Origin: Nocardiopsis prasina DSM 43845
GTDB lineage: Bacteria; Actinomycetota; Actinomycetes; Streptosporangiales; Streptosporangiaceae
Length of the DNA: 64,000 bases
Assembly (NCBI RefSeq): GCF_000341265.1
Contig: NZ_ANAE01000164.1
Coordinates: forward strand, 1-64,000
Reading direction: 5' to 3'
The translations under genes were made by a program, and so were the position numbers. Every line of letters begins with the position of its first letter. Positions within the stretch are counted from its first letter, which is position 1. Positions 36,900 through 56,213 of the stretch are shown in pieces. The notes under the pieces were generated by a model. It ran no database searches and was not told the DNA's origin. It worked only from the letters and a program-made list of their open reading frames with translations.

Positions 36900-37115
36900 A
36901 TGTCTATCGAGTCCGGTCACCTCTCGGCAAGCCTCGGAGACCTTCCGGTCGAGGAATTCAGTTCGAGTGGCGAGGGTGTCGTCGGCTTCGGCTCCAACCA
37001 GCCCGGTGGTATCGAGTCGCTCGGTTCCACGCTGGCCATGATGGAGATCGGCGCCTCCGGCGGCGGCGAGTGCTGCAGCTGCTGCAGCTGCTGCCCCTGC
37101 TGCTGCTGCAGCTGA
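36900..37115 (+). CDS. Thiopeptide-type precursor peptide 1
   Basis: A 71-aa RiPP precursor. The leader has SLGDLPVEEF, close to the DLPxxxF leader element of thiomuracin/GE2270-type precursors, and ends MMEIGA, like the xEVGA end of those leaders. If cleavage is after GA, the core is the 19-residue SGGGECCSCCSCCPCCCCS with ten Cys and four Ser. Cys would become thiazoles and Ser dehydroalanine or pyridine precursors. A strong AAAGGAG ribosome-binding site precedes ATG 36900. A near-identical precursor follows 184 nt downstream. Confidence 0.9.
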   Translation: MSIESGHLSASLGDLPVEEFSSSGEGVVGFGSNQPGGIESLGSTLAMMEIGASGGGECCSCCSCCPCCCCS

Positions 37116-37299: not shown

Positions 37300-37518
37300 A
37301 TGTCGATGAAGGCTGACCAGATCTCCGCTGGTCTCGGAGACCTTCCGGTCGAGGAATTCAGCACCAGCAGTGAGGGTGTTCTCGGCTTCGGTTCGGACCA
37401 GCCCGGTGGTATCGAGTCGCTCGGTTCCACGCTGGCCATGATGGAGATCGGCGCGTCTGGCAGTGGCGGCGGCTGCTGCAGCTGCTGTAGCTGCTGCCCC
37501 TGCTGCTGCTGCAGCTGA
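37300..37518 (+). CDS. Thiopeptide-type precursor peptide 2
   Basis: A 72-aa paralogue of precursor 1, with strong site GGGAGGAGG before ATG 37300. The leader (GLGDLPVEEFSTSSEG ... LAMMEIGA) is nearly identical over its central part. The predicted 20-residue core has SGSGGG in place of SGGGE, then the same CCSCCSCCPCCCCS. It thus has the same ten Cys, one extra Ser and one residue more before the first Cys. The duplication extends to the DNA level, so the pair is recent. The modification genes start 79 nt later. Confidence 0.9.
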   Translation: MSMKADQISAGLGDLPVEEFSTSSEGVLGFGSDQPGGIESLGSTLAMMEIGASGSGGGCCSCCSCCPCCCCS

Positions 37519-37597: not shown

Positions 37598-39406
37598 ATG
37601 CGACCGAAACTCCGGCCAGATGTCTACTACGTCCCGACCGCCGACGGGGCCTTCATCATCGACAGCGCACGGTCAGTGACACTGCGTGGTGGAGCGATCT
37701 ATCAGTGGGTGGAACTGCTCGCGCCGAGCCTGGACGGTTCCGTGCCGCTCGAGGACCTGACCTCTGGGTTGTCGCCCGCCCACCAGAAGATGGCCCTCGA
37801 CCTGGTGGGGCTGCTCGAACGCAACGGATTCGTCCGCGACGTCAGCGACGACCTGCCGCACACGCTGACCGAGACGGAGCTCAAGCGCTACCAGGCGGAG
37901 ATCGCCTACGTCGACTTCCGGTGCGACTCCGGCCCGGCGCGGTTCCAGACCTGGCGCGGCACCCGCATGGTCGTCGTGGGCAACGCCCCGCTCGCCGACT
38001 CCGCCGCGCGCGCCGCCTGGCACCTGGGCTGTAGCCGTGTGGAGGTCGTCGACCCCTCCGACGACGCCGACGCCCGCGCCGCGCGCGCCGCCGACCTCGC
38101 CGCGCTGCGGGAGGAGGACCCCGCCCTCGAACTCGTCGAGACCCCGGCCGCCGACCTCGCCGCGAGCGTGTCCGCCGCCGACTTCGTGGTCGTGCTGACC
38201 GAGGACCCGGCGCTCATCGACACCGTGGCGGAGGCCTGCACGGCTCCTCTCCTGCCGGTCCTGGTGACCCGTGACTCGGCGTGGGTGGGACCGATCCCGG
38301 GCGGTGCGGCCGGTTGGGCCGACGCCAAGGCGCGCCTGACCGACACCGGCACCCTCCCCGCCGGACCCTCGACCTGGTTGCGCGGACCCGCCGTGGGCGT
38401 GCCCGCCAACACCGCGCTGTTCGCGGCCTTCCGCGCCGTGACGGGCGCCTACCCCGCGCCGGTCTCCGGTGAGGTGGAGCGCATCGACCTGGAGACCCTG
38501 GAGTCCCAGACCGGGCGCGTGCTGCCGGTGGGCGCGGCACCGGCTCCCGCCAGCGAGGACCCGCGGGCGACGATCGACAGCGAGGCGTTCTCCCACGCCG
38601 CCGCCGAACTGTTCGACCCGCTCACCGGCCCGCTCCTCGAGATCGAGGAGCACCCGGAGCAGCTGCCGCTGCGCGTCGCCGTGGCCCGCCTGGTGAAGGG
38701 CGGCCAGACCACCGACGTCCTCGGTGTGGCCGACGCCTTCGTGGAGGCCCGGCACGGCGCCACCCTGGCCGCCCTCGGCCGCCTGGCCGCCGCCCATCCG
38801 GCGAGCGGACCGGCCCGGGACCTCGTCAGCGGTGAGACCGGTCCCGTGGTCAAGCCGGTGGACATCACCGACGCCCACGTCCCCGGTATCGGAGCCGCGC
38901 TCGACCGTGAGTCCGCGCTCTCCCAGGCGGTGCTGGACTACGCCGCGGAGCGGGCCGTGCCCGTCCCCGAACGGGCTCCGCTGATCGGCCGGGACGACCT
39001 CCCCGAACCCGTCGGCGAGCAGCTGCGCCGACTGGAACTGCTCGCGCAGTCGGGGGTCCGCCTCTTCCAGCTGGACGCCGAGCTGCCGACGGTCCTGGCC
39101 GCCTCCGACGCCGGGGCGTTGACGCGCGCCTCCGGCCCGGACCTGGCCTCCGCCGCCTCGCTGGCCGTCATCCGCGCCACGACTGCCGTGCAGTGCGGTG
39201 AGAACCCCGTCACGACGCCGCCACGACCGGAACGCGTGCCCGAACCCGAGGGTTCGGCGGCCCCGCTGACCGGACACCTGCTGACGTCCGAGGGCGCGGT
39301 CAAGCTGTTGGCCGCGCGCGGGCACCGGCTCGGGGTCGTGGAACTGGACGGCGAGCCCGCTCTGCGGACGGCGACGCCGCACCTGGTCAGGGTGGTGGAG
39401 CTGTGA
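37598..39406 (+). CDS. Ocin-ThiF-like / TOMM leader-peptide-binding protein
   Basis: A 602-aa protein expected to bind the precursor leader and deliver it to the YcaO enzyme. Residues 1-90 look like a winged-helix RiPP recognition element (VYYVPTADGAFIIDSARS ... LVGLLERNGFVRD). Residues about 120-250 form an E1/ThiF-like Rossmann domain (MVVVGNAPLADSAARAAWHLG) without a clear ATP site. The C-terminal half is poorly conserved. The start is ATG 37598. It corresponds in position and kind to the H-type protein of thiopeptide clusters. Its stop overlaps the next gene (GTGA). Confidence 0.85.
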   Translation: MRPKLRPDVYYVPTADGAFIIDSARSVTLRGGAIYQWVELLAPSLDGSVPLEDLTSGLSPAHQKMALDLVGLLERNGFVRDVSDDLPHTLTETELKRYQAEIAYVDFRCDSGPARFQTWRGTRMVVVGNAPLADSAARAAWHLGCSRVEVVDPSDDADARAARAADLAALREEDPALELVETPAADLAASVSAADFVVVLTEDPALIDTVAEACTAPLLPVLVTRDSAWVGPIPGGAAGWADAKARLTDTGTLPAGPSTWLRGPAVGVPANTALFAAFRAVTGAYPAPVSGEVERIDLETLESQTGRVLPVGAAPAPASEDPRATIDSEAFSHAAAELFDPLTGPLLEIEEHPEQLPLRVAVARLVKGGQTTDVLGVADAFVEARHGATLAALGRLAAAHPASGPARDLVSGETGPVVKPVDITDAHVPGIGAALDRESALSQAVLDYAAERAVPVPERAPLIGRDDLPEPVGEQLRRLELLAQSGVRLFQLDAELPTVLAASDAGALTRASGPDLASAASLAVIRATTAVQCGENPVTTPPRPERVPEPEGSAAPLTGHLLTSEGAVKLLAARGHRLGVVELDGEPALRTATPHLVRVVEL

Positions 39407-41280
39407 CCGAGTCGTTGACGGCCGCCCCCACCGTGGTGGGAACCGGTGTCCTGGCCGAGGCCCTCAGGGCCGTGGTCCCGCCGGAGTACACGGTGGTGGT
39501 CGGTGAGGACGGTGTCCTGCCGGAGATCCCCGCCGGGAGCGGGCCGGTGCTGCCGGTGCTCGCGCGCCGGGACCGGCTCTACGTCGGGCCGGTGGTGCGT
39601 GAGGACCGCCCCGGGTGCCCCGAGTGCCTGGAGTCGCGTCTGCTGTTGGCCCGGGAGTTCCCGGAGCCGATGGCCGAGATCGACCGCCGCGATCCGGAGC
39701 GGCTCCGAAGGTGGGCGCCGCCCGCGCTGACCCACCTGCACGCGGAGTTCGCGGCCGAGGTCGCTGGCAGGCTGGTCGAGCTGGACCGGGACCAGGACAC
39801 CGCCGAGCGGCGGTCGGTCATGGTCGTCCGGCTGATCGGCCTCGGTGTGCGCCGCGCGGTGCTCCTGCCCGACCCGCTGTGCGCCGTGTGCGGTGCGCTG
39901 CCCGAGGACAGCCCCGAGGACACGGAGACACTCGTTCCGAGCACCTCGCTGTCCCACAAGCCGGGTTCGATGCGGACCAAGTCCCTCGTGGACGACGAGT
40001 CCTTCCTTCCCACCTATGTGGACCGGGACGTCGGCCTCGTACGCACCCTCTTCAAGTACGGCGGCGGCGTGTTCCCGAACATGACCGCGCCGCTGGGTCT
40101 GCGGAACTCGACCGACATCGAGCAGGGCATCGGCCGTACCCCCTCCTACCGGGAGTCGGGAACCGCGGCCGTGGCCGAGGCGGTCGAGCGCTGGGGCGGG
40201 ATGAGCCCGTCGGGACACCGCAGTGTGGTCACGGGTGCCTACAAGGACCTCCCCGAGGCCCTCGACCTGCGACGGCTCGGCCTGCACGACGAGCACCGCT
40301 ACGACGAGGAGGGCTTCCCGTGCCAGCGGTGGACCGAGGAGTCGGAGCTGGACTGGGTCTGGGGCAGGTCCCTCACCCATGACAGGCCGGTCCTCGTGCC
40401 GGAGACCTACGCCTACTACCGCACCCGGCTGGTGCGCCCGGACCGTCCCCGGTTCCTGTACGAGGTGTCCAACGGCTGCGCCGTCGGCGGTTCCATGCCG
40501 GAGACGATCCTGCACGGGCTGATGGAGGTCATCGAGCGCGACGCGTTCCTGATGACCTGGTACTCGCGCCGCACCCCGGCCGAGATCGACCTCAGCACGG
40601 CCAAGGGAACCACCGTGCCGCTCCTGCTTGAGCGCATCGAGCGGCTGACCGGGTACACGGCGCACGCCTGGGACACCACCACCGAGCACGGCATCCCCAG
40701 CGTGTGGGTGGGCGTCGTCGACGAGCAGGAGCGCGACGGTTACGCCCGCTTCCTGTGCGCGGCGGCCTCGCACTTCGACATGGAGGACGCGGTGGCGGCC
40801 GGGCTCCTGGAGCTGGCCCCGATCATCGCCCAGCACCAGGACGAGCCCGACGACGTGCAGGACCTCGCCCGGCGTATGGTCGACGACCCCGACCTGTGCA
40901 CCTCGATGCTGCACCACAGCCAGCTCAACGGCAGGCCGGAGGCCCAGGACCGGTTGGCGTTCCTGTTCGACGGGCCCAAGCGGGAGATGGCCGAGCCCGA
41001 CCCGAGGCTGCACACCGACGGGCCCACCGACCTGGAGGCGCTGCTCAACGACACCGTCGAGCGTCTGCGGCAGCACGGCCTGGAGGTGCTGGTGGTGGAC
41101 CAGACCACTCCCGAGCACCGGGCGGGCGGTCTGTTCTGCGTGAAGGTGATCGTTCCGGGGATGCTGCCGATGACCTTCGGCAACAGGTTCCGCCGTGTGC
41201 GCGGACTCGACCGGGTGTTCGCGGCGGCGGCGAAGGAGGGCTTCGACGACGTGAACCCCGACCCGCACCCGTTCCCATGA
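39403..41280 (+). CDS. YcaO-domain cyclodehydratase (azoline-forming)
   Basis: A 625-aa enzyme that, using ATP, converts Cys residues of the precursor to thiazolines. The N-terminal 200 residues carry an E1-like module with two Cys pairs, C72/C75 and C160/C163, probably binding zinc. The YcaO domain follows: ESGTAAVAEAVERWGG and NGCAVGGSMPETILHGLMEV hold the ATP/Mg-binding Glu residues. The C-terminus DPHPFP gives the PxPxP motif of cyclodehydratase YcaOs. The start is GTG 39403, overlapping the previous stop by 4 nt. Confidence 0.93.
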   Translation: MTESLTAAPTVVGTGVLAEALRAVVPPEYTVVVGEDGVLPEIPAGSGPVLPVLARRDRLYVGPVVREDRPGCPECLESRLLLAREFPEPMAEIDRRDPERLRRWAPPALTHLHAEFAAEVAGRLVELDRDQDTAERRSVMVVRLIGLGVRRAVLLPDPLCAVCGALPEDSPEDTETLVPSTSLSHKPGSMRTKSLVDDESFLPTYVDRDVGLVRTLFKYGGGVFPNMTAPLGLRNSTDIEQGIGRTPSYRESGTAAVAEAVERWGGMSPSGHRSVVTGAYKDLPEALDLRRLGLHDEHRYDEEGFPCQRWTEESELDWVWGRSLTHDRPVLVPETYAYYRTRLVRPDRPRFLYEVSNGCAVGGSMPETILHGLMEVIERDAFLMTWYSRRTPAEIDLSTAKGTTVPLLLERIERLTGYTAHAWDTTTEHGIPSVWVGVVDEQERDGYARFLCAAASHFDMEDAVAAGLLELAPIIAQHQDEPDDVQDLARRMVDDPDLCTSMLHHSQLNGRPEAQDRLAFLFDGPKREMAEPDPRLHTDGPTDLEALLNDTVERLRQHGLEVLVVDQTTPEHRAGGLFCVKVIVPGMLPMTFGNRFRRVRGLDRVFAAAAKEGFDDVNPDPHPFP

Positions 41281-42935
41281 CGGACACGCACCCGAACACG
41301 ACGGCGGTACCCGTGACCGACGACGATGACGCGACCCTGGTGCGGGAGTACCTGTACGACGTGCACTACCGGTGGCAGGCGATCCACGCGGAGGGGCAGG
41401 GCGGGCTCGACGACCCCGCCCGCCCCCCGCTGTTCACCCTCCCCGCCGAGCCACGGCGCAGGTTCCCGCTTCCCACCGGGCCGCGGCACCGGATCGGTCC
41501 GCTCGGGGCCGCGCTCCGGGACGAGCACACGCGTCCCGGAGCCGGCCCCGGCGGGTCCGGCCCCGACCACGGTTCGGACCTGGAACGACTGGGCGAGCTG
41601 CTGTTCTACGGCTACGGCTTCTCCCGCATGGACATCGGCCCGCAGGTGGAGTGGCCGTGGCACCGCACGGTGGCCTCGGCGCGCTGCTTCTATCCGGTCG
41701 AACTGTCGGTGTGGTCGGACGCCGCGCCGGGCGGCGTCCACCGCTACGACCCGGCCCACCACGAACTCTCCGAGCTGCGCGACGACGTCGGCCTGTCCGA
41801 CCTGGCCGCCGCCGCAGCCGCGGAACTCGACGGCGCCCGGACCGTGCTGATCGTCACGGCCCGCCTGGGCAAGACCGCCTTCCGGTACCGGAACTACGCC
41901 TACCGGCTGGTCACCCAGGAGGCGGGGCTCGTCCTCGGCAACCTCCAGGTGGTGGCCTCGGCCCTGGGCCTGGGCGGGCACGCGCGGCTCCGGTTCCTCG
42001 ACGAGGCCGTCGCCCGGCTGCTCGCGCTGCCGGACGACGACTCGGAGTCGGTCTTGGCGCTCCTGCCCCTGTGGGACGGCGCGCAGGCTCCGACCGCACC
42101 CGGTCATCGGACGGCCGCTCCGGTGCCGCCGAGACGGACCGTGGTCCCGGTGGCGGGCGGCAACGGCATCGAACCGGCGCTCAGCTACCGGACCCTCGCC
42201 GTGGAACGGGCCTCGCGACTGCACGATCCGGCGGAGCTGGAGCCGGTGAAGGCGCCCGCCAGCACCCCGCTGGTCGGAGCGGGAGCCGCGGTGCCGGGGT
42301 CGGCCCCCGACCTGCCGCTGGCACCGCTGCGGCGGGAGAGCGGCACGGACACGGGGACGGCGGTGGTCCGCCGCGACTCCGGGCCGGACGTGTTCCTGCC
42401 CACCGCGAAGCCGGTGCCGTTGGGGGTCGTGGCCGACCTCCTGCTCGACGCGGTCCGACCGACCGCCGACGACCTCTGGCACGAGACGGCCCCGCCCGAG
42501 GTGGGGGTGCACGTGATCGCCGGTGCGGTCACCGCCCTGCCGCAGGGCCACTACCGGCTCGTGGACGGCGCGCTGCGCACCGTAAGCCACGGAGACCTGC
42601 GTCCCCCCTTCCAAGCCATGGACGTGTGGCGGACGGAGATCAACGCGCGGACCGCGCCGCTGATGGTGGCCGTCACCGCCGACACCGAGCGCCTGCTCGA
42701 ACACCACCCGAGGCGTGCCTTCCGCGCGACCCAGCTGCTCACCGGAGTGGTGGCGCAGCGGGTCTCCCTGGCCGCGGCCGCGCATGGTCTGTCCGCCCGG
42801 GTGACCAACAGCTACGACGCCGACGAGTGCGCCCGCCTGCTGGGCCTCGACGGCGAACGGGAGATTCCGGTGTTTCTTCTGGTACTGGGCGAGCCCAACG
42901 CGCCCTGGCACCTGGGGACGAGGGTGCGGCCTTGA
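41277..42935 (+). CDS. SagB/nitroreductase-like protein with two domains
   Basis: A 552-aa protein with two nitroreductase-like halves, likely FMN-dependent azoline dehydrogenase. The first half (ELLFYGYGFSRMDIGPQ, ASARCFYPVELSVW, GVHRYDPAHHELSEL) is clearly SagB-type; the second (RTAPLMVAVTADTERLLE ... TQLLTGVVAQRVSLAAAAHG) also has the family's C-terminal helix pattern. At the position of the Lys-Tyr pair reported for Bacillus TOMM dehydrogenases it appears to have RYRNYAYR, i.e. Asn-Tyr; an alignment is needed. ATG 41277 overlaps the YcaO stop by 4 nt. Confidence 0.82.
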   Translation: MTDTHPNTTAVPVTDDDDATLVREYLYDVHYRWQAIHAEGQGGLDDPARPPLFTLPAEPRRRFPLPTGPRHRIGPLGAALRDEHTRPGAGPGGSGPDHGSDLERLGELLFYGYGFSRMDIGPQVEWPWHRTVASARCFYPVELSVWSDAAPGGVHRYDPAHHELSELRDDVGLSDLAAAAAAELDGARTVLIVTARLGKTAFRYRNYAYRLVTQEAGLVLGNLQVVASALGLGGHARLRFLDEAVARLLALPDDDSESVLALLPLWDGAQAPTAPGHRTAAPVPPRRTVVPVAGGNGIEPALSYRTLAVERASRLHDPAELEPVKAPASTPLVGAGAAVPGSAPDLPLAPLRRESGTDTGTAVVRRDSGPDVFLPTAKPVPLGVVADLLLDAVRPTADDLWHETAPPEVGVHVIAGAVTALPQGHYRLVDGALRTVSHGDLRPPFQAMDVWRTEINARTAPLMVAVTADTERLLEHHPRRAFRATQLLTGVVAQRVSLAAAAHGLSARVTNSYDADECARLLGLDGEREIPVFLLVLGEPNAPWHLGTRVRP

Positions 42936-45442
42936 TCGTTGCACGCGTAGCGGGGCTGCCCAGCGCCAGCGCGCGGGTCGGCGAACTGCCCGACACCGCC
43001 CGCCGCCTCGGTGAACTCGACGCCCTCCGGGGCGACCTGACCCGCAGGGGCGAGGAGCTGGCGGACCTGATCCACGCGGCGGTGGGCGGCTGCGAGGACC
43101 GCGCCGTACGCCGCGCGCTGCTGGCCTGCCGCCGGGCCGTCCACAACGGCCGGGCGCCCAAGGCGTTGTCGGAGGCGGCCACGGCCCGGTTGTCCGGACC
43201 GGCGCGCGAACTCCACGCGCGGTTGGTCTCCGACCACGAGGCGCTGGACCGGGGGTGGGAGGAGGCCCGCGAGGCCTACCGCGCCGAGACGTCGGAGGCC
43301 GAACAGCGGCTGGCCGACCTCGTCCGGGACGAGAACTTCCGGCGTGCCCTGGCGATGGCCAGCGACGCCCTGTACCCCGACGTCGAGGCCTGGCTCTCCG
43401 GCCCGGCGAGTGCCCCCGAACACCTCAACACCCGCCGACGGGTGGTCAACTACGTCCTGCGGACCGCGCTGAAGACCAGCCCCTTCTCCACCCTGACCAC
43501 CGCCGGACCGCTGCCCGACGGCGACGGTGCCGGACCGGAGGGCGGGGCCGCGGAGACCGTCCAGGTCCAGGAGCCGGACCGGCTCTCCCGGCACCTGGAA
43601 CTCAACGCCGAGGTCGAGTTCCAGCTGGAGCGGCTGCTGGTCACCGGGCGCGGGCCGCTGTTCCTGCGGACCAATCCGACCCTGACCGTCCTGGGCGAGC
43701 GCGCCATGGTCGTGCACGCTGACGGGCGCTGCGTGGGTGTGCCCGCCCGCCCATGGCTGCTCGCGCTCGCCCGGCGGGCCGAGGACGGCGCCTCCCCGGC
43801 CGACCTCGCCGGGTTCCTCACCACCGAGTTCGGCGCGGCCGCAGCCGAGGCCGAGTCGATGCTCGGCCAACTGGTCAAGGCCGGTCTCCTCCAGAGCGAC
43901 CTCGGCGTGCCCGACCAGGCCCGGGACCGTCTGACCGACGTGGCCGACCGCCTCGGCCTGCCGGAGGCCTCCCCGGTGAGACGGGTCGGCGAAGCCGCGG
44001 GCGAGGTCGAGGCCGCCGACACGCCGGCTGACCGGTGGCTCTCCCTGGGACGTCTGCGCTCGACAGTCGGCGAGGCGCTGACCGAGGCCGGGGGCGACCC
44101 CTCCCTGATCCCGGGCAAGTACCTCTGTTACGAGGACGTGCTGCCCGGCTGGATCACCGCGCCCCGAACCCCGGACTGGTCGGCGTTCGACCGCGACCTG
44201 CACCGCGTCCGGCGCCTGGTGTCGGTGTTCGACGGGGCCCTGCCCGGCCGCCTGGCCATCGCGGAGCTGCTCGGACGCCGCTTCGGGACCACCGCCCGTG
44301 TGGGCCTGATGGAAGCCTGGCTGGCCTGGAACGAGGCCGCCCCCGCGAACGCCTCGGAGGGTGCCCCCGACACGGCCGTCCTCCACGCGCTGCGCGACAA
44401 CCCCTTCCACCTGGCCGACACCGGGGTGCCACGCGTCGAGGAGCTGCGCCGGTTCCAGACCGGGCTGCTCGGACTCCTCTCCCCGCCGGACGGCACTGGT
44501 CCCGCCTTCGACGCGGACGCCGGCGCCCTGGACCGGCTGCTGGACGCCGGTCCCGACTGGCTGCCCCAGGAACACCCCACCACCCTGTTCCTCCAGCCCC
44601 TGGCGGACGGGTCCCTCGCGTTCAACGCGTCCGCTCCCGGCCACGAGACCGCGGGCTCCCGGGTGCGCCGCTGGTCGGAGCCGCCCGTCCCGTACGAGGA
44701 CCGGGGCGGGGACGGGCCACTCCTGGTCGAGGTGGCGGGCCTGTTCCGCAGCTCCCTCAACCGGGTGGCGCCCCACGCCTCCCACGAGTTGGTCTGGCCC
44801 GGGTGCGTCCCCTCCCGGCCCCCGGAACGGCGGGTCCGCCCGGCGGACCTGGAGATCCGGCTGGACCCGGCCGGTGTCCCCACGCTGTGGTGGCGTCCTG
44901 CCGAACGCCCGGTGGAGCTCGTCCACCGGGGGACCATGGGCCGGTTCTGGTTCCCACCCGTGTTGCGCTTCCTCCTCGACCTGACCACCCCCATGTCCGA
45001 GGCGTGGGCGCTGGTGGGGCGGGCCCGCGCGCTGTACGTCAACCCGAAACCGTCCGAGGTGTCGGTCCTGCCGCGCCTGCGGGTCGGCGGGGTCCTCATG
45101 GAACGCCGGAGCTGGATCGTGCCCCGAGCGGAGCTGGACCTCGGCGAGGGGGACGACTTCGAGCGGTTCACCCGTGTGCGCCGCCGGGTCCGGGACCTGG
45201 GGCTGCCCGACGTCGTCTTCGCGCGGGCCGCCGACGTCGTCGACACCACCGAACGGGTCATGGAGAAGGCCAAGGACCGCAAGCCGCGCCCCCTGGACCT
45301 GTGCTCCTGGTGGGGGGTCGAGGAGCTGGCCCGGCTGTCCAAGGGGCGGGACCTGCTGCTGTTCCAGGAGGCCGCGCCGGACGTGTTCGGCTCCGGCCGG
45401 GTCGTGGAGTACGCCGTCGAACTACCGGGGGAGCGCCGATGA
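42932..45442 (+). CDS. LanB-type dehydratase, tRNA-Glu-dependent glutamylation domain
   Basis: An 836-aa protein of the lantibiotic dehydratase N-terminal family. In split LanB systems of thiopeptides this protein transfers Glu from glutamyl-tRNA to Ser/Thr of the precursor. Typical features are the block NYVLRTALKTSPFSTLT near residue 180 and the late segment FWFPPVLRFLLDLTTPMSEA. There is no C-terminal elimination domain; that role goes to the next gene. The start TTG 42932 overlaps the previous stop (TTGA); the reading frame is open far upstream, so the start rests on the overlap pattern. Confidence 0.88.
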   Translation: MIVARVAGLPSASARVGELPDTARRLGELDALRGDLTRRGEELADLIHAAVGGCEDRAVRRALLACRRAVHNGRAPKALSEAATARLSGPARELHARLVSDHEALDRGWEEAREAYRAETSEAEQRLADLVRDENFRRALAMASDALYPDVEAWLSGPASAPEHLNTRRRVVNYVLRTALKTSPFSTLTTAGPLPDGDGAGPEGGAAETVQVQEPDRLSRHLELNAEVEFQLERLLVTGRGPLFLRTNPTLTVLGERAMVVHADGRCVGVPARPWLLALARRAEDGASPADLAGFLTTEFGAAAAEAESMLGQLVKAGLLQSDLGVPDQARDRLTDVADRLGLPEASPVRRVGEAAGEVEAADTPADRWLSLGRLRSTVGEALTEAGGDPSLIPGKYLCYEDVLPGWITAPRTPDWSAFDRDLHRVRRLVSVFDGALPGRLAIAELLGRRFGTTARVGLMEAWLAWNEAAPANASEGAPDTAVLHALRDNPFHLADTGVPRVEELRRFQTGLLGLLSPPDGTGPAFDADAGALDRLLDAGPDWLPQEHPTTLFLQPLADGSLAFNASAPGHETAGSRVRRWSEPPVPYEDRGGDGPLLVEVAGLFRSSLNRVAPHASHELVWPGCVPSRPPERRVRPADLEIRLDPAGVPTLWWRPAERPVELVHRGTMGRFWFPPVLRFLLDLTTPMSEAWALVGRARALYVNPKPSEVSVLPRLRVGGVLMERRSWIVPRAELDLGEGDDFERFTRVRRRVRDLGLPDVVFARAADVVDTTERVMEKAKDRKPRPLDLCSWWGVEELARLSKGRDLLLFQEAAPDVFGSGRVVEYAVELPGERR

Positions 45443-46362
45443 GCTGGATCACGGCCCACTGCTACTACCACCAGGACCCGGCGGTGGTGATCACCTCCGT
45501 CGTCGCGCCGACCGTGCGGGCGCTGGGGGACAGAGCGCCGCACTGGTTCTACGTCCGCTACTGGACCGGCGGACCGCATGTCAGGTTCCGCCTGTGGGTG
45601 CCCGGCCCCGACGACCGCGAGACCGCGCGCGAGGAGGTCCGGAGCCGGTTCGAGGACCTGGTCCGACAGCGGCCCTCACGCGTCGAGGCGGATCCGGCCG
45701 ACTTCCAGCGGCTCGCCGACCTGATCGGCAACCCCGGCGACGAGGCCGGGGCCGACATCCTCCCGGACAACACCCTCACCTGGGAGTCGTACCGGCCCGA
45801 GACGGAGCTGTACGGCGGCCCCGCCGCCATGGAGCACGTCGAGGAGTTCTTCACCGCGTCCAGCCGCGACGCCCTGGCGTACGTCGGCACCCCCACCGAC
45901 CCGGTGGCCCGCGCCGTGTGGTGCATGGCCAGCGGGCTGGCGACGGTCGGCGACGCGGACTGGGTCAACCGGTTCGTGGACCACATGGTCGGCCGTTGGA
46001 TCGGTGAGCAGATCGGTGCCCAGTGGCAGCGGGTCGTCGACCAGTCCTGGCAGCGGTCCGGGGACCGCGTCCGCCATCTCGTCCGGCACGCTCTGACCGC
46101 CTCGCCCGGTGGCGGCGAGGGGGAGTGGCTCGGGGCCTGCCAGCGGCTCCAGGAGGGACTGGCGGACGTGGAGGCGCGGGGCCTGCTGGAGCCGGCCGAG
46201 GGCACCGCGCCCGACGGGCTCGCCCACCTGGACCGGGGGATGGCGACCCTGTCCGCGCTGCACATGCACAACAACCGTCTCGGGGTCCACATGGAACGGG
46301 AAGCACTGGTGATGGAACTGCTCAGGCTGGCCCTGGCCGACACCGTGTCGGTGGGGTCGTGA
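45439..46362 (+). CDS. Thiopeptide-type elimination protein (small LanB)
   Basis: A 307-aa protein of the thiopeptide-type bacteriocin biosynthesis (LanB C-terminal) family. It begins SWITAHCYYHQDPAVVIT and has the family block WFYVRYWTGGPHVRFRLW, then a C-terminal part (MHNNRLGVHMEREALVMELL). In split LanB systems such a protein removes the glutamate to give dehydroalanine. The end resembles elimination domains in keeping HNNRLG, so I favour elimination for this one and pyridine synthesis for the next. ATG 45439 overlaps the previous stop by 4 nt. Confidence 0.82.
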   Translation: MSWITAHCYYHQDPAVVITSVVAPTVRALGDRAPHWFYVRYWTGGPHVRFRLWVPGPDDRETAREEVRSRFEDLVRQRPSRVEADPADFQRLADLIGNPGDEAGADILPDNTLTWESYRPETELYGGPAAMEHVEEFFTASSRDALAYVGTPTDPVARAVWCMASGLATVGDADWVNRFVDHMVGRWIGEQIGAQWQRVVDQSWQRSGDRVRHLVRHALTASPGGGEGEWLGACQRLQEGLADVEARGLLEPAEGTAPDGLAHLDRGMATLSALHMHNNRLGVHMEREALVMELLRLALADTVSVGS

Positions 46363-47459
46363 CGGCCGCCAGGCGGCTCCGGGTCGCCTACCACGACGCC
46401 GACCCCGCGCCCCTGCTGAGGGTCGGGGTACGCCCCCTGCTCGCCGAACTGGCGGCCGAGGGCCTGCCCGCGTACTGGGCGCGGCACTGGCGCCGGGGTC
46501 CGCACCTGCGGATCGTCGTGGACGCCGACGACGCCGCCTGGGAGGGGATCGTACGCCCCGCGGCACGACGCCACCTGGAGGCGGCACTGGCCGCCCACCC
46601 CTCCACCACGGTGATCGACCCGGCAACCCTCCGTGAGACCTACCGGCTGCTCGCCGAACGCGAACGGGAGTACGGGCCGCTGGAGCCGCAGCAGCCCGAC
46701 AACACCGTCGAGGAGGAGCCGCACGACCCCCGGCTGCACGTGCTCGGCACCCACGACGCCGTCGCGCTGTTCGAGGGCTTCCACCAGCGCACCAGTGACG
46801 CGGCGCTCACCATGGCCGTGGGCGAGGGCCCCTCGCTCAGCACCCACGTCGTCGACCTCATGCTGATCATGGCCCAGGAGGTGGGCGGCTACCTCGAACG
46901 CGGATTCGTCTCCTACCGCTCCCACGCCGAGGCGCACATCATGGGCAGCCCCGACCCCCGGGCCGTCCGCGCGCTGTTCGACGAACGCTCCGCCAGGCTG
47001 CGCGACCCCCTCGTCCAGAGGGTGCGGGCGCACGCCGAAGGGGCCACCGCCCACCTGGACGAACTCACTGTCTCCGTGGGCCGCGAACTCGTGCGGGCCG
47101 CAGACGACGCCCGGCCCCTGCTCGCCGACGGCCGACTCGACCTCGACGGTCCGATCGCGAACGGCGGGGGAGCCGAGGGCGGCGACGCCACGGAGGAACA
47201 GACCCGCCACAGCGACTTCCACCGGACCCTGCGCGGTTCCGGCGACTTCGAGCGGACCCTGCGCGAGGCCCCCTGGTTCCTCCGCTACCGGGTGGCGCTC
47301 AACCTCCTGTACCTGCACCTGGCGCGCATCGGCGTCCGCCCGGTGGACCGTTTCCTGTACTGCCACGTCGTCGCCGACGCGGTGGAGCAGGCCTGTGGGG
47401 TCGACGCCGTGGCGATGGTGGCCTCGGGCGCGACCGAACTCGTAGAAGGGCACTCATGA
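46359..47459 (+). CDS. Second small LanB-like protein, probable [4+2] pyridine synthase
   Basis: A 366-aa protein related to, but diverged from, the preceding one. It starts RLRVAYHDADPAPLLRVGV, followed by YWARHWRRGPHLRIVVD, the counterpart of the GGPHxRxR block. Thiopeptide clusters contain exactly such a second small LanB homologue (TclM/TbtD type) that joins two dehydroalanines into the central pyridine and releases the leader. A purely linear dehydrated azole peptide would need only one, so this gene is the main evidence for macrocyclisation. The assignment is by cluster logic. GTG 46359 overlaps the previous stop. Confidence 0.7.
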   Translation: MTAARRLRVAYHDADPAPLLRVGVRPLLAELAAEGLPAYWARHWRRGPHLRIVVDADDAAWEGIVRPAARRHLEAALAAHPSTTVIDPATLRETYRLLAEREREYGPLEPQQPDNTVEEEPHDPRLHVLGTHDAVALFEGFHQRTSDAALTMAVGEGPSLSTHVVDLMLIMAQEVGGYLERGFVSYRSHAEAHIMGSPDPRAVRALFDERSARLRDPLVQRVRAHAEGATAHLDELTVSVGRELVRAADDARPLLADGRLDLDGPIANGGGAEGGDATEEQTRHSDFHRTLRGSGDFERTLREAPWFLRYRVALNLLYLHLARIGVRPVDRFLYCHVVADAVEQACGVDAVAMVASGATELVEGHS

Positions 47460-48814
47460 GCACGGCCGAGCGCACGACCGCGACCGACGCCGACCGGGAC
47501 ACCGTCCTGGCGTACCTGGCCGACCGCGAACTGCCCCAGGTGTCGGGGGCGTACCAGCTGTACCCGACGAGGGCCGGGCGGCCCGGGGTGGCCGAGCACG
47601 CCCTGCCCCGCCCCGGTCACGGCCCCGACGGGCCCGTCGACCGCATCTCCCGCATGCTGGCCACCGGCAACGGACTCGCCCGGCACCGGTTCCTGACCGT
47701 CTCGGGAGCACGGGCGTTCCTGCCCACCGGCGCCCCCGGATGGGGGTTCGACGAGCAGCACGTGATGACCACCCTGCTGCGCCTGGTCGCCAGCGGCGGC
47801 GCGGCCTACCCGGTGGACCTCTGGCTGCTCTCGGGCGGGGAGTCCGGACTGCCGGTCGGCGCGCACCGCTACAACCCGGTGCACCACGGGCTGACCCAGG
47901 TCACCACCGAGGACCCCCGGCCGCGTCTGGCGCGGGCCCTGGGCGGTGCGGTCTCCGACCTCACCATCGTGCTGACGACCCGGCTGGAGCGCACCACGGG
48001 CCGGTACGGCAAGTTCGCCCACCGGCTGCACCTGCTGGACACCGGCCACACGCTGGCGCAGCTGCTGATCGCGGGGCGCAGTCTGGACTGGGAGTGCACA
48101 CCCCGGCTGGCGTTCGTCGACGACGAGATCGAGCACATCCTGGACCTGGGCGACGAGACCGAGATCGCCTTCGCGGTGGTCACGGTCGGCCCGACCAGCA
48201 CGGTGACGCCCGCCAGCGACCCGGCGCCCGTCCGGATCCCGCCGGTCCCGGACCGCTACCCGCAGGACGTCCTGCGCGCGGCCCGCCGCTCCGAGCCCGG
48301 GCCGGAGCTGGAGTTCGGCGAGATCACCATGCCCCGCGACCCGGACCGCGCGATGCAGCGCCGCCGCAGCCCGGTCGGCGGGTTCGTGGCTCCGCCGCCC
48401 TCCGCAGAGGACCTGGCGCCCGTGGCCGCGGCGGTCGACTCCGTGCTCGGCCCGCTGGGCGGGCACGGCAGGCTGGTCCCGCCCAAGGACCCGAGGGTGG
48501 CCACCCGGATCGGGGCCCCGGGACACCGGCTCAACCTGTCGCTGGCGGGCGTGGTCGTTCCGGTCCTGGAACTGCCCGAACTGGTGCGGAAGCACGGCCC
48601 CGGCGCCTTCCGGGTGGGGGCCGTGGCGATCGGCGTCTCACTCCAGGCAGCGGCCCTGGTCGCGGCCGACCGTGGTTTCGGGACCTTCCCGCTGTGCGCC
48701 TACGACGGCCCGGGGATCGAGGCCAACCTGGAGCTGCCCGAGGCGTCCACGATGTGTGTGGCGCCGATCGGTGTGGCCGCGCACGTCGGAGCCTCACTGG
48801 AGGTGCCGCTGTAG
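47456..48814 (+). CDS. SagB-type dehydrogenase (second)
   Basis: A 452-aa FMN-dependent oxidase of the SagB/nitroreductase type, last gene of the overlapping series. The pattern AYPVDLWLLSGGESGLPVG, GAHRYNPVHHGLTQV and GRYGKFAHRLHLLDTGHTLAQ is typical for azoline dehydrogenases. The Lys of the expected Lys-Tyr pair is present, but Tyr is Phe (GKF). A second region (LVAADRGFGTFPLCAYDGPG) forms the cofactor pocket end. It may oxidise thiazolines to thiazoles, with the other SagB-like protein as partner or for a subset of sites. ATG 47456 overlaps the previous stop by 4 nt. Confidence 0.85.
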   Translation: MSTAERTTATDADRDTVLAYLADRELPQVSGAYQLYPTRAGRPGVAEHALPRPGHGPDGPVDRISRMLATGNGLARHRFLTVSGARAFLPTGAPGWGFDEQHVMTTLLRLVASGGAAYPVDLWLLSGGESGLPVGAHRYNPVHHGLTQVTTEDPRPRLARALGGAVSDLTIVLTTRLERTTGRYGKFAHRLHLLDTGHTLAQLLIAGRSLDWECTPRLAFVDDEIEHILDLGDETEIAFAVVTVGPTSTVTPASDPAPVRIPPVPDRYPQDVLRAARRSEPGPELEFGEITMPRDPDRAMQRRRSPVGGFVAPPPSAEDLAPVAAAVDSVLGPLGGHGRLVPPKDPRVATRIGAPGHRLNLSLAGVVVPVLELPELVRKHGPGAFRVGAVAIGVSLQAAALVAADRGFGTFPLCAYDGPGIEANLELPEASTMCVAPIGVAAHVGASLEVPL

Positions 48815-48875
48815 GCGGTTCCGAGAACGGCCCGGTCCCGGTGGTGGGGGATGCCGACGGGACCGGGCGCACGTG

Positions 48876-48914
48876 GGGCCGGGCCGGTCGAGAAATTCTC
48901 GACCGGCCCGGCCC
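48876..48914. terminator. Bidirectional terminator between convergent operons
   Basis: A perfect 19-bp inverted repeat with a single-base centre (AGAAATTCT at the tip) lies between the RiPP operon (stop 48814) and the leftward dehydrogenase gene (stop 49001). Its symmetry suits termination from both sides. Confidence 0.85.
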
Positions 48915-49000
48915 TCGCACATCGGAGTAGGGCGAAGGTTCGCGGACGCGTATCGGTCGAGGCTGCGCCGCCACCGACGAAGCGTCCGGAAGGAGACGCC

Positions 49001-50176
49001 CTAGACACCCTCGAAGAGGGAACGCACCTGCTCCCGGGTCCTGGGCCGCAGCGGCTCGGACCAGGCCCGCCACGTCTGCTCGGTCAGCTCCTCGGCGGTG
49101 GTGTCCAGGCCCAGCTCCTCGAACTCCGTGGGGAAACCCCAACGGCGCAGGAGGTCGGTCAGCGCGTCCGCGACCTCGGCCGGGGTCACGGACGTCCCCG
49201 TGAGACCCAGCGCGCGGCCACCGAGGTCGGCGAGCCGGTCGGCGTGCCCGGCCAGCTTGTCGCCGTCGACCACCATCCGCGCCCACCGGGTCAGCAGGAC
49301 CCCGAGGGCCGGACCCTTGCGCAGTCCCTGCGCGGTGAGCGTGTTGGTCGGGTACCAGACCCAGAACGAGTGCAGGTGGCGGCCGATCTGGTGCAGCGTG
49401 AACGTACTGACGCTGGCGGCCAGCGCGATGGTGCCGCGCGCCTCCAGGTCGTCGCCGTCGGCCAGGGCCCGTTCGGCGGCCGGGATGACCGCCCTGATCT
49501 GACCGATCGCGACCTCGTCGGGCAGGGCCGTGGTCGGCGGGTCCGACACCATGGGGACCAGGAGGCGGGCGACCGTTTCGAGCGCGCCCTCGGCGGTCAG
49601 CGCGGGCGGCAGGGACGTGTGCAGCATCGGGTCGATCACCGCGACCCTGGGGAACAGGGACCAGTGGACCAGGAAGCGGCGGTCCGTGCCGTCGGCCAGG
49701 CTCGCCTTGGCGTTCACCTCGCTGCCGGTCGCCGCCGTGGTCGGTACCGCCACCACGGGCAGGCCGCCCCGCGTGACGGGCTCGGGCATGACGAACCCGC
49801 CGCCGGGCTTCCAGCCGGTGAGGAGACCGGGCAGCGCCACCGCCGCGGCGGCCGCCTTGGCCAGGTCCATCACCGTTCCGCCGCCGATCGCGCAGACGGA
49901 GCGCACACCCTCCGCGCGCAGGCGGTTGGCCAGGTCCTCGGCCTCCTGCCGGGTGGGCGTGGAGGCGGCGCGGCGTACGATCACCTCGGGGGCGAGCCGT
50001 TCCAGCAGCTGGGCGACGCCGGGGACGGCCGTCGCCGCGTGGTCGTCGACCACGACCGCGACCGGTCGGCCGGTCCGTTCGATCTCCAGCGGCACGTCGC
50101 GCAGACGGCCGGCGCCGAAGTCGACCCTGGTGGGTACCCACCAGTGGGGGTTGATGGTGGAGCCCGCTTCGGTCAT
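49001..50176 (-). CDS. Iron-ADH-like dehydrogenase, daptide MpaC-like
   Basis: A 391-aa protein of the iron-containing alcohol dehydrogenase fold. The NAD-binding AIGGGTVMDLAKAA (GGG at 98-100) and PTTAATGSEVN near 145 are clear. The metal site is unusual: the canonical G-x-D-A-x-x-H block appears as EGALETVARLL, His residues remain at about 262, 267 and 269, and the final PHG is PTNT. The dehydrogenase-aminotransferase pair recalls daptide clusters, where such an enzyme oxidatively decarboxylates the C-terminal Thr. Here the likely substrate is the C-terminal Ser of the core. ATG 50176 overlaps the aminotransferase stop (ATGA). An alternative is a small-molecule alcohol oxidation. Confidence 0.75.
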   Translation of the reverse strand: MTEAGSTINPHWWVPTRVDFGAGRLRDVPLEIERTGRPVAVVVDDHAATAVPGVAQLLERLAPEVIVRRAASTPTRQEAEDLANRLRAEGVRSVCAIGGGTVMDLAKAAAAAVALPGLLTGWKPGGGFVMPEPVTRGGLPVVAVPTTAATGSEVNAKASLADGTDRRFLVHWSLFPRVAVIDPMLHTSLPPALTAEGALETVARLLVPMVSDPPTTALPDEVAIGQIRAVIPAAERALADGDDLEARGTIALAASVSTFTLHQIGRHLHSFWVWYPTNTLTAQGLRKGPALGVLLTRWARMVVDGDKLAGHADRLADLGGRALGLTGTSVTPAEVADALTDLLRRWGFPTEFEELGLDTTAEELTEQTWRAWSEPLRPRTREQVRSLFEGV

Positions 50177-51513
50177 CGTGACCTCACCGCCTTCAACGCG
50201 CCGGCTAGCCGGGCCGCGATCTCGTCCACTTCGGCGTCGGTGACGACGAGCGGGGGGAACAGGAGCAGGCAACGGCGGCTCAGGTGCACCAGGAGCCCGT
50301 TGCGCTGGCACAGGTGGCTGATCATCGCCATGTCCATGGGGGACAGGGGCTCGCGGCTCACCGGGTCCCGGACCAGTTCGACGGCCAGGGCCAGGCCCTC
50401 GCCGCGCACCTCACCGACGATGTCCAGTTCGAGGAGCGCGTCCAGGTGCTGCCGCAACCGGGCCCCGGCCTTCGCGGAGCGCTCCACCAGGTTCTCGTCC
50501 TCCATGACGTCGAGCGTGGCGAGGGCGGCGGCGCAGGCGGCGGGGTTGCCGGACTGGGTCTCCCCGTGGGTGAGATAGGTCCCCGAGGCCTCGTAGGCCT
50601 CGTACACCTCGGCGGGGAAGAGCGTGGCGGCCAGTGGGAGGTACCCGCTGTTGATGCCCTTGGACAGGGTGACCACGTCGGGTCGGACGCCGGTGTGCTC
50701 GCTCGCGAACATCCTCCCGGTGCGTCCGAACCCCGTGGCCACCTCGTCGACGATCAGGTGGGCGCCCATGCGCCTGGTGGCTGCGGCGACCTCCTCAAGG
50801 AAGCCGTCCGGCGGCATGAGCACACCGCCCGAGCACAGGATGGGTTCGACGATGACCGCCGCCACCTGGTCTCCCTCGGTTCGCTCCAGTTCGGCCAGGG
50901 CCTCGCGGCAGGTCCGCTCGTCGGGGCCCAGCCCGCGTTCGGCGGCGAAGGGGTCCGGGTAGGGGAGCAGCCGGTTCCACCGGCGGTCCACCCCGTACTC
51001 CTCCTGGTCGAGGTCCTCTCCGGTCAGGGCCATGGCGCCGATTCCCGTGCCGTGCCAGGAGTGGGCGTCGAACGAGACCACCAGGCGGCGCTCGGGCTGC
51101 CCCACCAGGCTGCGGTACCGGCGCAGCACCTTGACGGCCGTCTCGTTGGCGGAGGACCCGGAGGAGGAGAAGTAGACGCGTTCGAAGTCGCCGGGCGCGA
51201 TCTCCAGCAGCCGGGCGGCGAGGTCCCGGGCCGTGTCGTGGCCGTAGCGGAACAGCGTGCCGTAGGAGAACCGGCGCAGCTGCTCGGTGACGGCGTCGAC
51301 GATCCTCGGGTGGTTCCAACCGCAGGTCACGTTCCACAGGCCTGACGTGGCGGACAGGTAGCTGTTCCCCGCCTCGTCCCGGACCCGGACCCCCTCACCC
51401 TCCACGAGGGTGGTCCCGCCTCGCTCGAACATGGACATCGAGGTCATCGGAAGCCACAGGGGCGAGGCTCCCGAAGATCCCGGTGGAGCGGGGGGTCGCC
51501 CGTCAGAGTTCAT
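50173..51513 (-). CDS. Class III PLP aminotransferase, daptide MpaD-like
   Basis: A 446-aa aminotransferase of fold type I, class III. Visible features are FSSSGSSANETAVKVLR (about 115-131), DAHSWHGTG, IVDEVATGFGRTG with the PLP Asp near 256, and the Schiff-base Lys near 285 in TLSKGINSG. It is the first gene of a two-gene leftward operon and is coupled to the dehydrogenase. In daptide clusters the homologue aminates the C-terminal ketone. Here it would give a C-terminal primary amine. The ATG at 51513 has GAAAGAG upstream. Related beta-alanine or diaminobutyrate aminotransferases cannot be excluded from sequence alone. Confidence 0.8.
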   Translation of the reverse strand: MNSDGRPPAPPGSSGASPLWLPMTSMSMFERGGTTLVEGEGVRVRDEAGNSYLSATSGLWNVTCGWNHPRIVDAVTEQLRRFSYGTLFRYGHDTARDLAARLLEIAPGDFERVYFSSSGSSANETAVKVLRRYRSLVGQPERRLVVSFDAHSWHGTGIGAMALTGEDLDQEEYGVDRRWNRLLPYPDPFAAERGLGPDERTCREALAELERTEGDQVAAVIVEPILCSGGVLMPPDGFLEEVAAATRRMGAHLIVDEVATGFGRTGRMFASEHTGVRPDVVTLSKGINSGYLPLAATLFPAEVYEAYEASGTYLTHGETQSGNPAACAAALATLDVMEDENLVERSAKAGARLRQHLDALLELDIVGEVRGEGLALAVELVRDPVSREPLSPMDMAMISHLCQRNGLLVHLSRRCLLLFPPLVVTDAEVDEIAARLAGALKAVRSR

Positions 51514-51734
51514 CTCGCTCTTTCTTGGCAGGCTTCAGTCGACGCTGGACCCAGCATGCGGTAAGTCACTTACACCTCGGTTACTGTCCGGTTGCGCCGA
51601 ACAGGTCTTTCGACCTACTTTCATCACGTGCTGAAGGTAGCCGCCGGCAATGATTTGCCACGTAAAGTAGTGATAAAGCTGGCCCGTTCCGGACGCACGG
51701 AGATGGGTAGAGCACTTCCCGAACAGGAGGCGAC
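51514..51734. promoter_or_regulatory. Divergent promoter region, aminotransferase / SARP
   Basis: About 220 nt, the most AT-rich part of the cluster (51560-51700). It separates the leftward aminotransferase operon from the rightward SARP gene and should carry both promoters. Related inverted segments (CTACTTTCATCAC and GTAAAGTAGTGAT) flank a CACGTG near 51626; these could be an operator. Confidence 0.5.
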
Positions 51735-52529
51735 GTGATTGAGTTCGGGATTCTGGGTCCACTGGTCATTTATCGGGACGGAGTTCCGGTTGTGCTCAGG
51801 GCCCCCATGTTGCGCCGTCTGTTGGCCGTACTGCTGAGTCAGGGCGGGCACCGGCTCTCGCTGGACGAACTGGCGGAAGCTCTCTGGGAAGGGGCGCCGC
51901 CGGACGGGGCCCGGAGCACCCTACAGGTGTACGTTCACCGGCTGAGGAAGGTGCTGGACGACAGCGGCCGTCTGGTTAGGGACGGTCCGGGTTACCGCAT
52001 GGTTTTGTGTAGCGCGGAGGTTGACGCGAAGAGGTTCGAGACGACCGTCGCCCTCGCCCGCAGGGCGCGCGGTCGCAGTGATCTCCAGCAGGCCTCCGAA
52101 ATGTACTGCCACGCGATGGCGCTGTGGAGGGGAAGACCCTATTCGGATATTCCCAACAGCGGAGTGGTGGCGAACGAGATTCGGCGTCTGGAGGAACTCA
52201 GGCTGTTGACCAACCAGGAACGGATCGAGATCGATCTGGACCGGGGACACCACGCCCGTCTGGTCCCCGAGCTGACCGAGCTCACCACCGCCCACCCGTA
52301 CCGGGAGAGGCTGCTCGCCCTGTTGATGCTCGCGCTGTACAGATCGGGCCGACAGGCCGAGGCACTGGGGATCTACCGGGGAACCCGCCTCCGGCTCGCC
52401 CAGGAGCTCGGAGTGGAACCCACCATGCCCCTGCGACGACTCCACGAGGCGATCCTGCGGGCCGACGGCCAGCTCCTGCGCATCACCGCCGACGAGCTGG
52501 ACACGCAGTGGGAACCGAGCGCCGCCTAG
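51735..52529 (+). CDS. SARP-family transcriptional regulator
   Basis: A 264-aa activator of the Streptomyces antibiotic regulatory protein type (AfsR/DnrI/RedD). Residues 1-90 form an OmpR-like winged helix (MIEFGILGPLVIYRDG ... STLQVYVHRLRKVLDD) and 95-245 a bacterial transcriptional activation domain (EMYCHAMALWRGRPYSDI ... RERLLALLMLALYRSG). There are no NB-ARC or TPR extensions. The start is GTG 51735, with ACAGGAGG at 51723-51730. Its place at the cluster edge makes it the likely pathway-specific activator. Confidence 0.93.
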   Translation: MIEFGILGPLVIYRDGVPVVLRAPMLRRLLAVLLSQGGHRLSLDELAEALWEGAPPDGARSTLQVYVHRLRKVLDDSGRLVRDGPGYRMVLCSAEVDAKRFETTVALARRARGRSDLQQASEMYCHAMALWRGRPYSDIPNSGVVANEIRRLEELRLLTNQERIEIDLDRGHHARLVPELTELTTAHPYRERLLALLMLALYRSGRQAEALGIYRGTRLRLAQELGVEPTMPLRRLHEAILRADGQLLRITADELDTQWEPSAA

Positions 52530-52732
52530 GCGGGTCCCTTCGGAGGGGTGTCCCGGACCACCTCCGATTACGGACCTGACCGGCCACACACGACGACGCG
52601 ACGGGGCACGGGTCCGACTCCGCGACGGACTCCGTGGCCCGGTCGCGGTCGAGCCCCGGCCCGGGAACGCGAACCCGTGCGGCCCGAGGACCCCAAGGGG
52701 TACCGCCGCCCGGGCCTGGGTACGGTTCGACC

Positions 52733-55117: not shown

Positions 55118-56080
55118 ATGGCCACAGTCGTGACGATTCGCCAGCTCCTGGAGAGCGGCGTCCACTTCGGGCACCAGACCCGTCGCTGGAACCCCAAGAT
55201 GAAGCGCTTCATCTTCACTGAGCGCAACGGCATCTACATCATCGACCTCCAGAAGTCGCTGGCGTACATCGACCGCGCCTACGAGTTCGTCAAGCAGACG
55301 GTCGCCCACGGTGGCACCATCCTGTTCGTCGGCACGAAGAAGCAGGCGCAGGAGGCCATCGACGAGCAGGCTCGCCGCGTCGGCATGCCGTTCGTCAACC
55401 AGCGCTGGCTGGGCGGCATGCTCACCAACTTCTCCACCGTGCACAAGCGGCTCCAGCGCCTCAAGGAGCTGGAGGAGATCGACTTCGACGACGTCGCCGG
55501 CTCCGCCCTCACCAAGAAGGAGCTGCTCAACCTTCGCCGTGAGAAGGACAAGCTGGAGCGCACCCTCGGTGGTATCCGCGACATGTCCCGCGTGCCCAGC
55601 GCCGTGTGGATCGTGGACACCAAGAAGGAGCACATCGCGATCAGCGAGGCTCGCAAGCTGAACATCCCGGTCGTCGCCATCCTCGACACCAACTGCGACC
55701 CGGACGAGGTCGACTACCCGATCCCGGGTAACGACGACGCCATCCGCAGCGTCAGCCTCCTCACCCGCGTCGTCGCCGACGCCGTCGCCGACGGTCTCCT
55801 GGTCCGCTCCGGTGCCTCCGGCGCGACCGAGGAGAAGGCCGCCGAGGAGCCCCTGGCCGAGTGGGAGCGCGAGCTCCTCGAGGGCAAGAGCGAGACGGCT
55901 GCCGCCGAGGCCGCCGCCGAGCAGGCCCCCGACGAGACCCCGACCGTCGCTCCGGCCGACGAGGTCGCCGCCGAGGCTCCGGCCGAGGCCACCTCCGAGG
56001 ACTCCCCGGTGGACGCCCCCGAGCAGGCCCCCGCCGAGGCTCCGGTCGAGACCCCCGCCGAGGACAAGACCGCCGAGTAG
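55118..56080 (+). CDS. rpsB: 30S ribosomal protein S2
   Basis: A 320-aa small-subunit protein. The start [20 protein letters not shown] and the blocks [14 protein letters not shown] and [20 protein letters not shown] are family signatures. The last 70 residues are an Ala/Glu/Pro-rich acidic tail, long even for actinobacteria. The ATG at 55118 has AAGGAGGA at 55103-55110. It is followed by tsf, the usual rpsB-tsf pair, with 130 nt between them. Confidence 0.97.
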
Positions 56081-56213
56081 TCAGCGGCCCCTTCCGGGGA
56101 CACCGTTTCCCGCGCGCCGCCTCGCCCCTTCCGGGCGGGGCGGCCCGCGCGGTGCTCACCCGGGTCGCTCCACTTCCAGATCAGACTTCACTCAAGGGAA
56201 TCCGAGAACAGTC

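Follow-up and report, generated by a model that had tools for sequence, protein, structure and literature searches.

The window analysed here is a 64,000-nucleotide stretch of contig NZ_ANAE01000164.1 from Nocardiopsis prasina DSM 43845. The genome (G000) comprises 5,998,803 bases in 240 contigs. Within the window, a thiopeptide cluster is located between a dprA-like open reading frame (ORF), named by eye and ending at position 36680, and a RidA-like gene at 52634 (Table 1). Profile searches identified a pyridine synthase, a YcaO protein and a split LanB; with the Cys/Ser-rich precursors, this is the combination that defines such a cluster. The YcaO protein scored 320 bits against TIGR03604 (cut-off 219.25) and 93.1 bits against TIGR03882 (cut-off 36.9). 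On the opposite strand, convergent to the thiopeptide operon, are genes for an Fe-ADH-fold dehydrogenase (ADH) and a class III aminotransferase (AMT). The two overlap at an ATGA (50176–50173) that contains the ADH start (50176–50174) and the AMT stop (50175–50173). This arrangement, an overlapping Fe-ADH-like and aminotransferase gene pair facing a thiopeptide-type operon and next to a SARP, had been described in a sequence-only reading of the DNA. The description is borne out by profile searches (PF00465 and PF00202 for the pair) and by the coordinates. The same reading had noted the lack of a methyltransferase; likewise, none of the block's ten genes other than the precursors matched a methyltransferase family. 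A daptide-type peptidase and a daptide-type transporter are also absent from the block.

Table 1. Genes of the thiopeptide cluster, with positions in the window.
Gene and product	Position	Strand	Evidence or remark
Precursor A1	36900..37115	+	core ...GAS-GGGE-CCSCCSCCPCCCCS
Precursor A2	37300..37518	+	core ...GAS-GSGGG-CCSCCSCCPCCCCS
F, ocin-ThiF-like partner protein	37598..39406	+	TIGR03693, 101.9 bits, below cut-off of 561.9
G, YcaO cyclodehydratase with N-terminal leader-binding domain	39403..41280	+	TIGR03604 and TIGR03882, both above cut-off
E, SagB-type azoline dehydrogenase	41277..42935	+	TIGR03605, above cut-off
B, LanB N-terminal part	42932..45442	+	PF04738; start codon uncertain
C, LanB C-terminal part	45439..46362	+	PF14028; TIGR03891, above cut-off
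D, TbtD/PbtD-type pyridine synthase	46359..47459	+	NF045556 (equivalog), 371.2 bits, cut-off 325
Second SagB-type dehydrogenase	47456..48814	+	TIGR03605, 83.3 bits, cut-off 78.4
ADH, Fe-ADH-fold dehydrogenase, relative of daptide dehydrogenases	49001..50176	-	PF00465, 1e-30; proposed C-terminal oxidative decarboxylase
AMT, class III aminotransferase, relative of daptide aminotransferases	50173..51513	-	PF00202, 5.7e-96; proposed C-terminal amine maker
SARP-type regulator (BTAD and Trans_reg_C)	51735..52529	+	last gene of the co-moving block

On the 3' side of the block, the scanned genes encode RidA-like, phage-integrase-family, ribosomal protein S2, amino acid kinase and CTP transferase proteins. 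The scan ran to 59598, apart from ORFs at 55812–57050 and 58084–58641, and upstream genes carry names given by eye. Elsewhere in the genome, at C111:4863-5906, there is a second pyridine-synthase-like gene, with 31% identity to D. Matches to D at 29–31% are listed in 14 other genomes of the genus.

The NCBIfam model that best fits ADH is daptide_DH (NF041822). The score of 152.5 bits is about half of the cut-off (300), which 6 of 17 daptide-labelled loci also fail to reach (195.6–283.7 bits). For AMT the best model is daptide_amino (NF041821), at 408.2 bits or about nine tenths of the cut-off (450). Hence, the kinship with daptide models proposed in the sequence-only reading held for the identity of the top model and failed at the threshold. 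With both scores under the cut-offs, ADH and AMT are relatives, not members, of the daptide families. In 14 control genomes, daptide_DH gave no match at 1e-28 among the four candidates scored per genome, and PF00465 matched in 13. A search of a genus guessed to be Streptomyces-like, scored in the same way, returned 31 matches. Of 20 contexts, 19 were daptide clusters, with matches to DapB, C, D, P and T. Among 35 further genomes there were three loci, all already in our daptide set. When the ADH from a related thiopeptide locus, L018, was used as the query, one new locus was obtained (L153).

Phylogenetic analysis placed both enzymes with those of daptide clusters. Among ADHs, one branch (SH-aLRT 99) divides the tree into groups of 39 and 32 rows. 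The first side holds 28 daptide, five window-type, three Thr-type thiopeptide and three orphan sequences. The other has 31 generic Fe-ADHs and L224, the twentieth context of the Streptomyces-like search. The generic set consists of L202, from the same genome as the window, and the 30 best-scoring sequences of at least 340 residues among at least 80 loci from a contig search; these 80 loci, with 23–37% identity, were taken to be generic Fe-ADHs. L200 fell under the length limit and was dropped from this outgroup. Window-type ADHs group with those of two thiopeptide loci, L016 and L017 (SH-aLRT 93), and that of L018 clusters with daptide dehydrogenases (97). The AMT phylogeny sets 27 daptide sequences, five of window type and L018 apart (SH-aLRT 99) from a small outgroup of 16 further class III aminotransferases, 11 of them encoded in the window's own genome. 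An initial FastTree run gave the same AMT group with support of 0.848. Both trees omit the frameshifted L015 and, in each, nine near-duplicate daptide rows. Loci L129–L145 were labelled daptide because of their ADH–AMT pair, and DapB was checked in three of them. Placement by tree had been named beforehand as a way in which the proposal could fail; both enzymes fell with daptide enzymes (SH-aLRT 99), apart from the small-molecule Fe-ADHs and the remaining class III aminotransferases.

The active site of ADH tells the same story. Four alignment columns, which we take to be the metal ligands of the Fe-ADH family, are occupied by E200, R204, W274 and K287 in the window enzyme. The E/R/W/K combination occurs in 45/45 daptide and thiopeptide rows and in 0/31 generic rows. 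At the same columns, generic rows have D (31/31), H (29/31), H (31/31) and H (31/31). Consistent with this, the daptide enzyme TfDapC has substituted metal-coordinating residues and works with NAD+ and no added metal (excerpts of PMC12670281). Window-type ADHs differ from Thr-type rows at further conserved columns, such as T279 (Glu in 39/40), F168 (Leu in 38/40) and A149 (Gly in 39/40). Such differences might mark a new substrate, or simply the common descent of the five sequences, which are close relatives.

The three orphans have the E/R/W/K replacement. Two are Fe-ADH-like proteins (L126:286-2627; L127:10163-12837, G118), each encoded directly 3' of a 379- or 407-residue protein with no Pfam match. 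These neighbours have Cys-rich tails that end in Thr (...CGPCGLPT and ...CARCVYPT), and searches near the two orphans found no YcaO, LanB or aminotransferase matches. Possibly, such orphans oxidise the C-terminus of a large Cys-rich protein. The third (L128, G133:C1:3749000-3768900) has a context without AMT or thiopeptide matches.

We next consider distribution. Family searches scored the first five candidates per genome for ADH and for the pyridine synthase. Window-type ADH (at least 81% identity) was found in G000 and five genomes of the same genus, 6 of 341 in the family. Window-type pyridine synthase (at least 80%) was found in the same six; other pyridine synthase matches, among those listed, have at most 45% identity. 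Distant ADH matches (33–38%) occur in two further genomes and at a second site in one of the six. Searches with tblastn located the whole block in all five relatives, with AMT adjoining ADH in 5/5. The block follows dprA in the window and at L011, L012 and L015. At L014 it comes before the ORFs that the window has 5' of dprA, and dprA there is directly 5' of the RidA-like gene (L233). At L013, the fetched DNA on either side has no match of at least 40% identity to any flanking ORF of the window. Two sites of the block are in one conserved housekeeping region; the place in G118 is unrelated. These different placements (window 36680-52634, L014, L233 and L013) suggest movement of the whole cluster together. 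The co-moving unit extends from the first precursor through the SARP gene, ADH and AMT included. The pair is part of the thiopeptide cluster: it occurs in the same six of 341 genomes and shares three genomic settings with it.

It could be argued that the pair is an ordinary small-molecule Fe-ADH and omega-aminotransferase, next to the cluster by chance. Enzymes of both kinds are frequent, with 15 PF00202 and six PF00465 matches in G000, and both window proteins are under the daptide cut-offs. Against this stand the trees, the loss of all four metal ligands, the conserved co-occurrence and the common moves. Coincidental small-molecule enzymes are therefore largely refuted, and we regard this explanation as highly improbable.

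As the sequence-only reading had it, both window cores end in Ser; each has ten Cys. All 13 window-type precursors found in the six species end CCSCCSCCPCCCCS and thus in Ser, although the whole core is invariant in these close relatives and so the 13 are not independent observations. Conversely, daptide-type precursors end in Thr in 68/68 motif-bearing cases, from 30 of 36 loci. The remaining 6/36 daptide loci had no motif match, and the filter ignored the last residue. This difference bears on whether the pair could be vestigial, or confined to Thr-ended products that an ancestor made, so that the present product keeps the Ser acid. The Thr ends of the 68 daptide-type precursors, and of those at L016, L017 and L018, are what such a history would predict. 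However, the pair is under purifying selection like that of the core enzymes. Compared with four orthologues (NG86), dN/dS is 0.17–0.23 for ADH and 0.15–0.21 for AMT, alongside 0.15–0.34 for YcaO and 0.20–0.25 for the pyridine synthase. Reading frames of the pair are intact in 5/6 copies; in the sixth, L015, several genes are frameshifted. We judge a vestigial pair very unlikely. At L015 (G095:C1), ADH, D, YcaO, E, B and dprA are all in pieces. These breaks probably represent assembly errors, since they also hit the housekeeping gene dprA.

The daptide RRE protein, DapB (NF041823), went unmentioned in the sequence-only reading. A search of G000 with this model gave a best score of 11.1 bits (E 0.32), and genome searches did not find DapB in G118, G088, G095 or G131. 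The model was positive in 3/3 daptide genomes used as controls (G115, G319 and G686). Hence, the thiopeptide ADH may act late or without DapB. A hidden DapB in G000 was considered and rejected on the search of that genome. G107 (C1:5.20 Mb) and G096 (C1:7.30 Mb) do have copies, far from the block (7.25 Mb and 1.64 Mb, respectively).

The kinship of the two enzymes with daptide tail enzymes probably means a thiazole-rich ring peptide with a small amine end, made from Ser. Our favoured interpretation, which we consider likely, is a thiopeptide cluster with a C-terminal tail finished by a daptide-type two-enzyme step and an N-(2-aminoethyl)amide as the product. Gene content, kinship, active-site signature, conservation and cluster membership are demonstrated here; from them we infer the reaction on Ser, the order of steps, the ring-closing pair and the product, as follows. 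Briefly, the YcaO, F and SagB enzymes would generate thiazoles from the ten core Cys and the split LanB would supply dehydroalanines. The pyridine synthase would then close the macrocycle and expel the leader, presumably joining the second core Ser to the one in the conserved GAS motif. The ring would be 29- or 32-membered, depending on the variable linker length. Beyond it would extend a bisthiazole-Pro-tetrathiazole-Ser tail with the last Ser free. In thiocillins, the last Thr likewise stays free. The Fe-ADH-fold enzyme without a metal site would, with NAD, oxidise the last Ser at its side-chain alcohol; CO2 would be lost and an aminoacetaldehyde end would remain. AMT would convert this aminoacetaldehyde amide to the primary amine, the N-(2-aminoethyl)amide. 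For ten thiazoles, three dehydrations and the pyridine, the calculated monoisotopic masses for A1 are 1504.059 (acid), 1458.054 (aldehyde) and 1459.086 (amine, [M+H]+ 1460.093), and those for A2 are 1519.070, 1473.065 and 1474.096 ([M+H]+ 1475.104); micrococcin P1 comes out at 1143.210 by this formula. The amine donor of TfDapD is the epsilon amine of L-Lys (excerpts of PMC12670281).

Alternatively, the last Ser might be removed to leave an amide, or otherwise used, as in the pyridine, with the pair modifying a small molecule or another peptide. If the pyridine formed from the first and last core Ser, a possible 32-membered ring, no Ser would be left for ADH. The amide end of nosiheptide arises when an extra C-terminal Ser is lost (excerpts of PMC3917276). 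Furthermore, MpaC rejects Ser, a C-terminal Ser variant being left unmodified (excerpts of PMC10036551); among biochemical results on this point it is the only one found. C-terminal Thr is named as the only strict requirement in excerpts of PMC12670281. These two statements, the scores under the daptide cut-offs and the missing DapB also weigh against the favoured interpretation. Even so, the pair always accompanies the operon and groups with enzymes that act on peptide C-termini, and a first Ser is available at the leader end, within the GAS motif, as in other thiopeptides. We consider a last Ser used in this way improbable, and retain amine formation as the preferred outcome. A more elaborate version is possible but doubtful. 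Here, a DapB-independent, metal-free decarboxylase switched from Thr to Ser would yield a tetrathiazole N-(2-aminoethyl)amide thiopeptide, with a flat cationic tail that might bind nucleic acid beyond the usual thiopeptide targets. The proposed polythiazole tail brings to mind bleomycin, with its bithiazole-amine tail.

If the favoured interpretation is correct, the C-terminal amine chemistry of daptides extends to thiopeptides and to Ser, and the published view of C-terminal Thr as a strict requirement would change. A cationic end would be added to a poorly soluble antibiotic class, and aldehydes or amines could be prepared from Ser-ended peptides with the enzyme pair. The six related species, together with Thr-type relatives that have the same enzymes, make the substrate switch directly testable.

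While the daptide kinship and cluster membership proposed by the sequence-only reading stand, its remark that it knew of no described thiopeptide made this way overstated the lack of precedent. According to the discussion of PMC10036551, thiopeptide-like pyridine synthases occur in subgroups of daptide clusters, and excerpts of PMC12670281 describe some of the YcaOs associated with daptides as azoline-forming enzymes of the thiopeptide kind. Moreover, three thiopeptide loci of the same family (L016, L017 and L018), with Thr-ended precursors, have an ADH with the E/R/W/K signature. The thiopeptide–daptide combination is already in print; what is new is the Ser-ended version without DapB or a methyltransferase. 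No Ser-ended, DapB-less version was found in the parts of the literature covered, although the 1,034-cluster supplementary list of PMC12670281 may hold some. Similarly, no thiopeptide with a primary amine from C-terminal Ser was found in the article text covered.

L016 and L017 appear TP-1161-like. As in the window, a thiopeptide cluster includes an ADH with the shared signature and DapB is absent, and their ADHs are the nearest beyond the genus-level clade. Unlike the window, with its Ser-ended precursors and AMT, these loci have Thr-ended precursors (SCVGTACTCSSTSSST for L016, SCTTTGCACSSSSSST for L017) and no AMT in the fetched DNA. TP-1161 contains three thiazoles and aminoacetone, according to a review (excerpts of PMC7345825). 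The L017 precursor end, with three Cys and a final Thr, fits this structure, and L017 may encode a TP-1161 relative. Such loci raise the prospect that ADH acts on the last Ser to give an aldehyde, an alcohol or a cyclised form as the end point, with AMT serving another step. Aminoacetone ends are known in both TP-1161 and YM-266183/4 (excerpts of PMC7345825). Yet AMT is in the daptide aminotransferase clade, overlaps ADH at the ATGA and adjoins it in 5/5 relatives. We think a non-amine end point unlikely, and an amine remains our preferred product.

L018/L226 (G294:C57) resembles the window in having a thiopeptide operon, an ADH and an AMT, the last 46.5% identical to that of the window. It differs in its DapB-like protein (83.9 bits, under the cut-off of 150), in three precursors ending CSVCST and in an ADH that groups with daptide enzymes. 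The pyridine synthase is distant (NF045556, 163.3 bits; cut-off 325). This locus is a closer thiopeptide–daptide hybrid than the window itself.

The daptide pathway (MpaB/C/D/M; TfDapBCDM) has the same two enzyme families, the same AMT-then-ADH order (also seen at L018) and the same metal-ligand replacement, and in both cases the enzymes probably act on a hydroxy amino acid at the C-terminus. However, daptides are helical hydrophobic peptides ending in Thr and the window specifies a thiopeptide precursor ending in Ser. The window also differs in lacking DapB (genome-wide) and, in the block, the methyltransferase DapM and a daptide-type peptidase or transporter, and its enzymes score below the daptide cut-offs. 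With thiomuracin/GE2270-type systems (TbtD/PbtD), the cluster shares a pyridine synthase above the NF045556 cut-off, a split LanB, YcaO and SagB enzymes. It is set apart from them by its polycysteine core, Gly-rich linker, second SagB and daptide-type tail enzymes.
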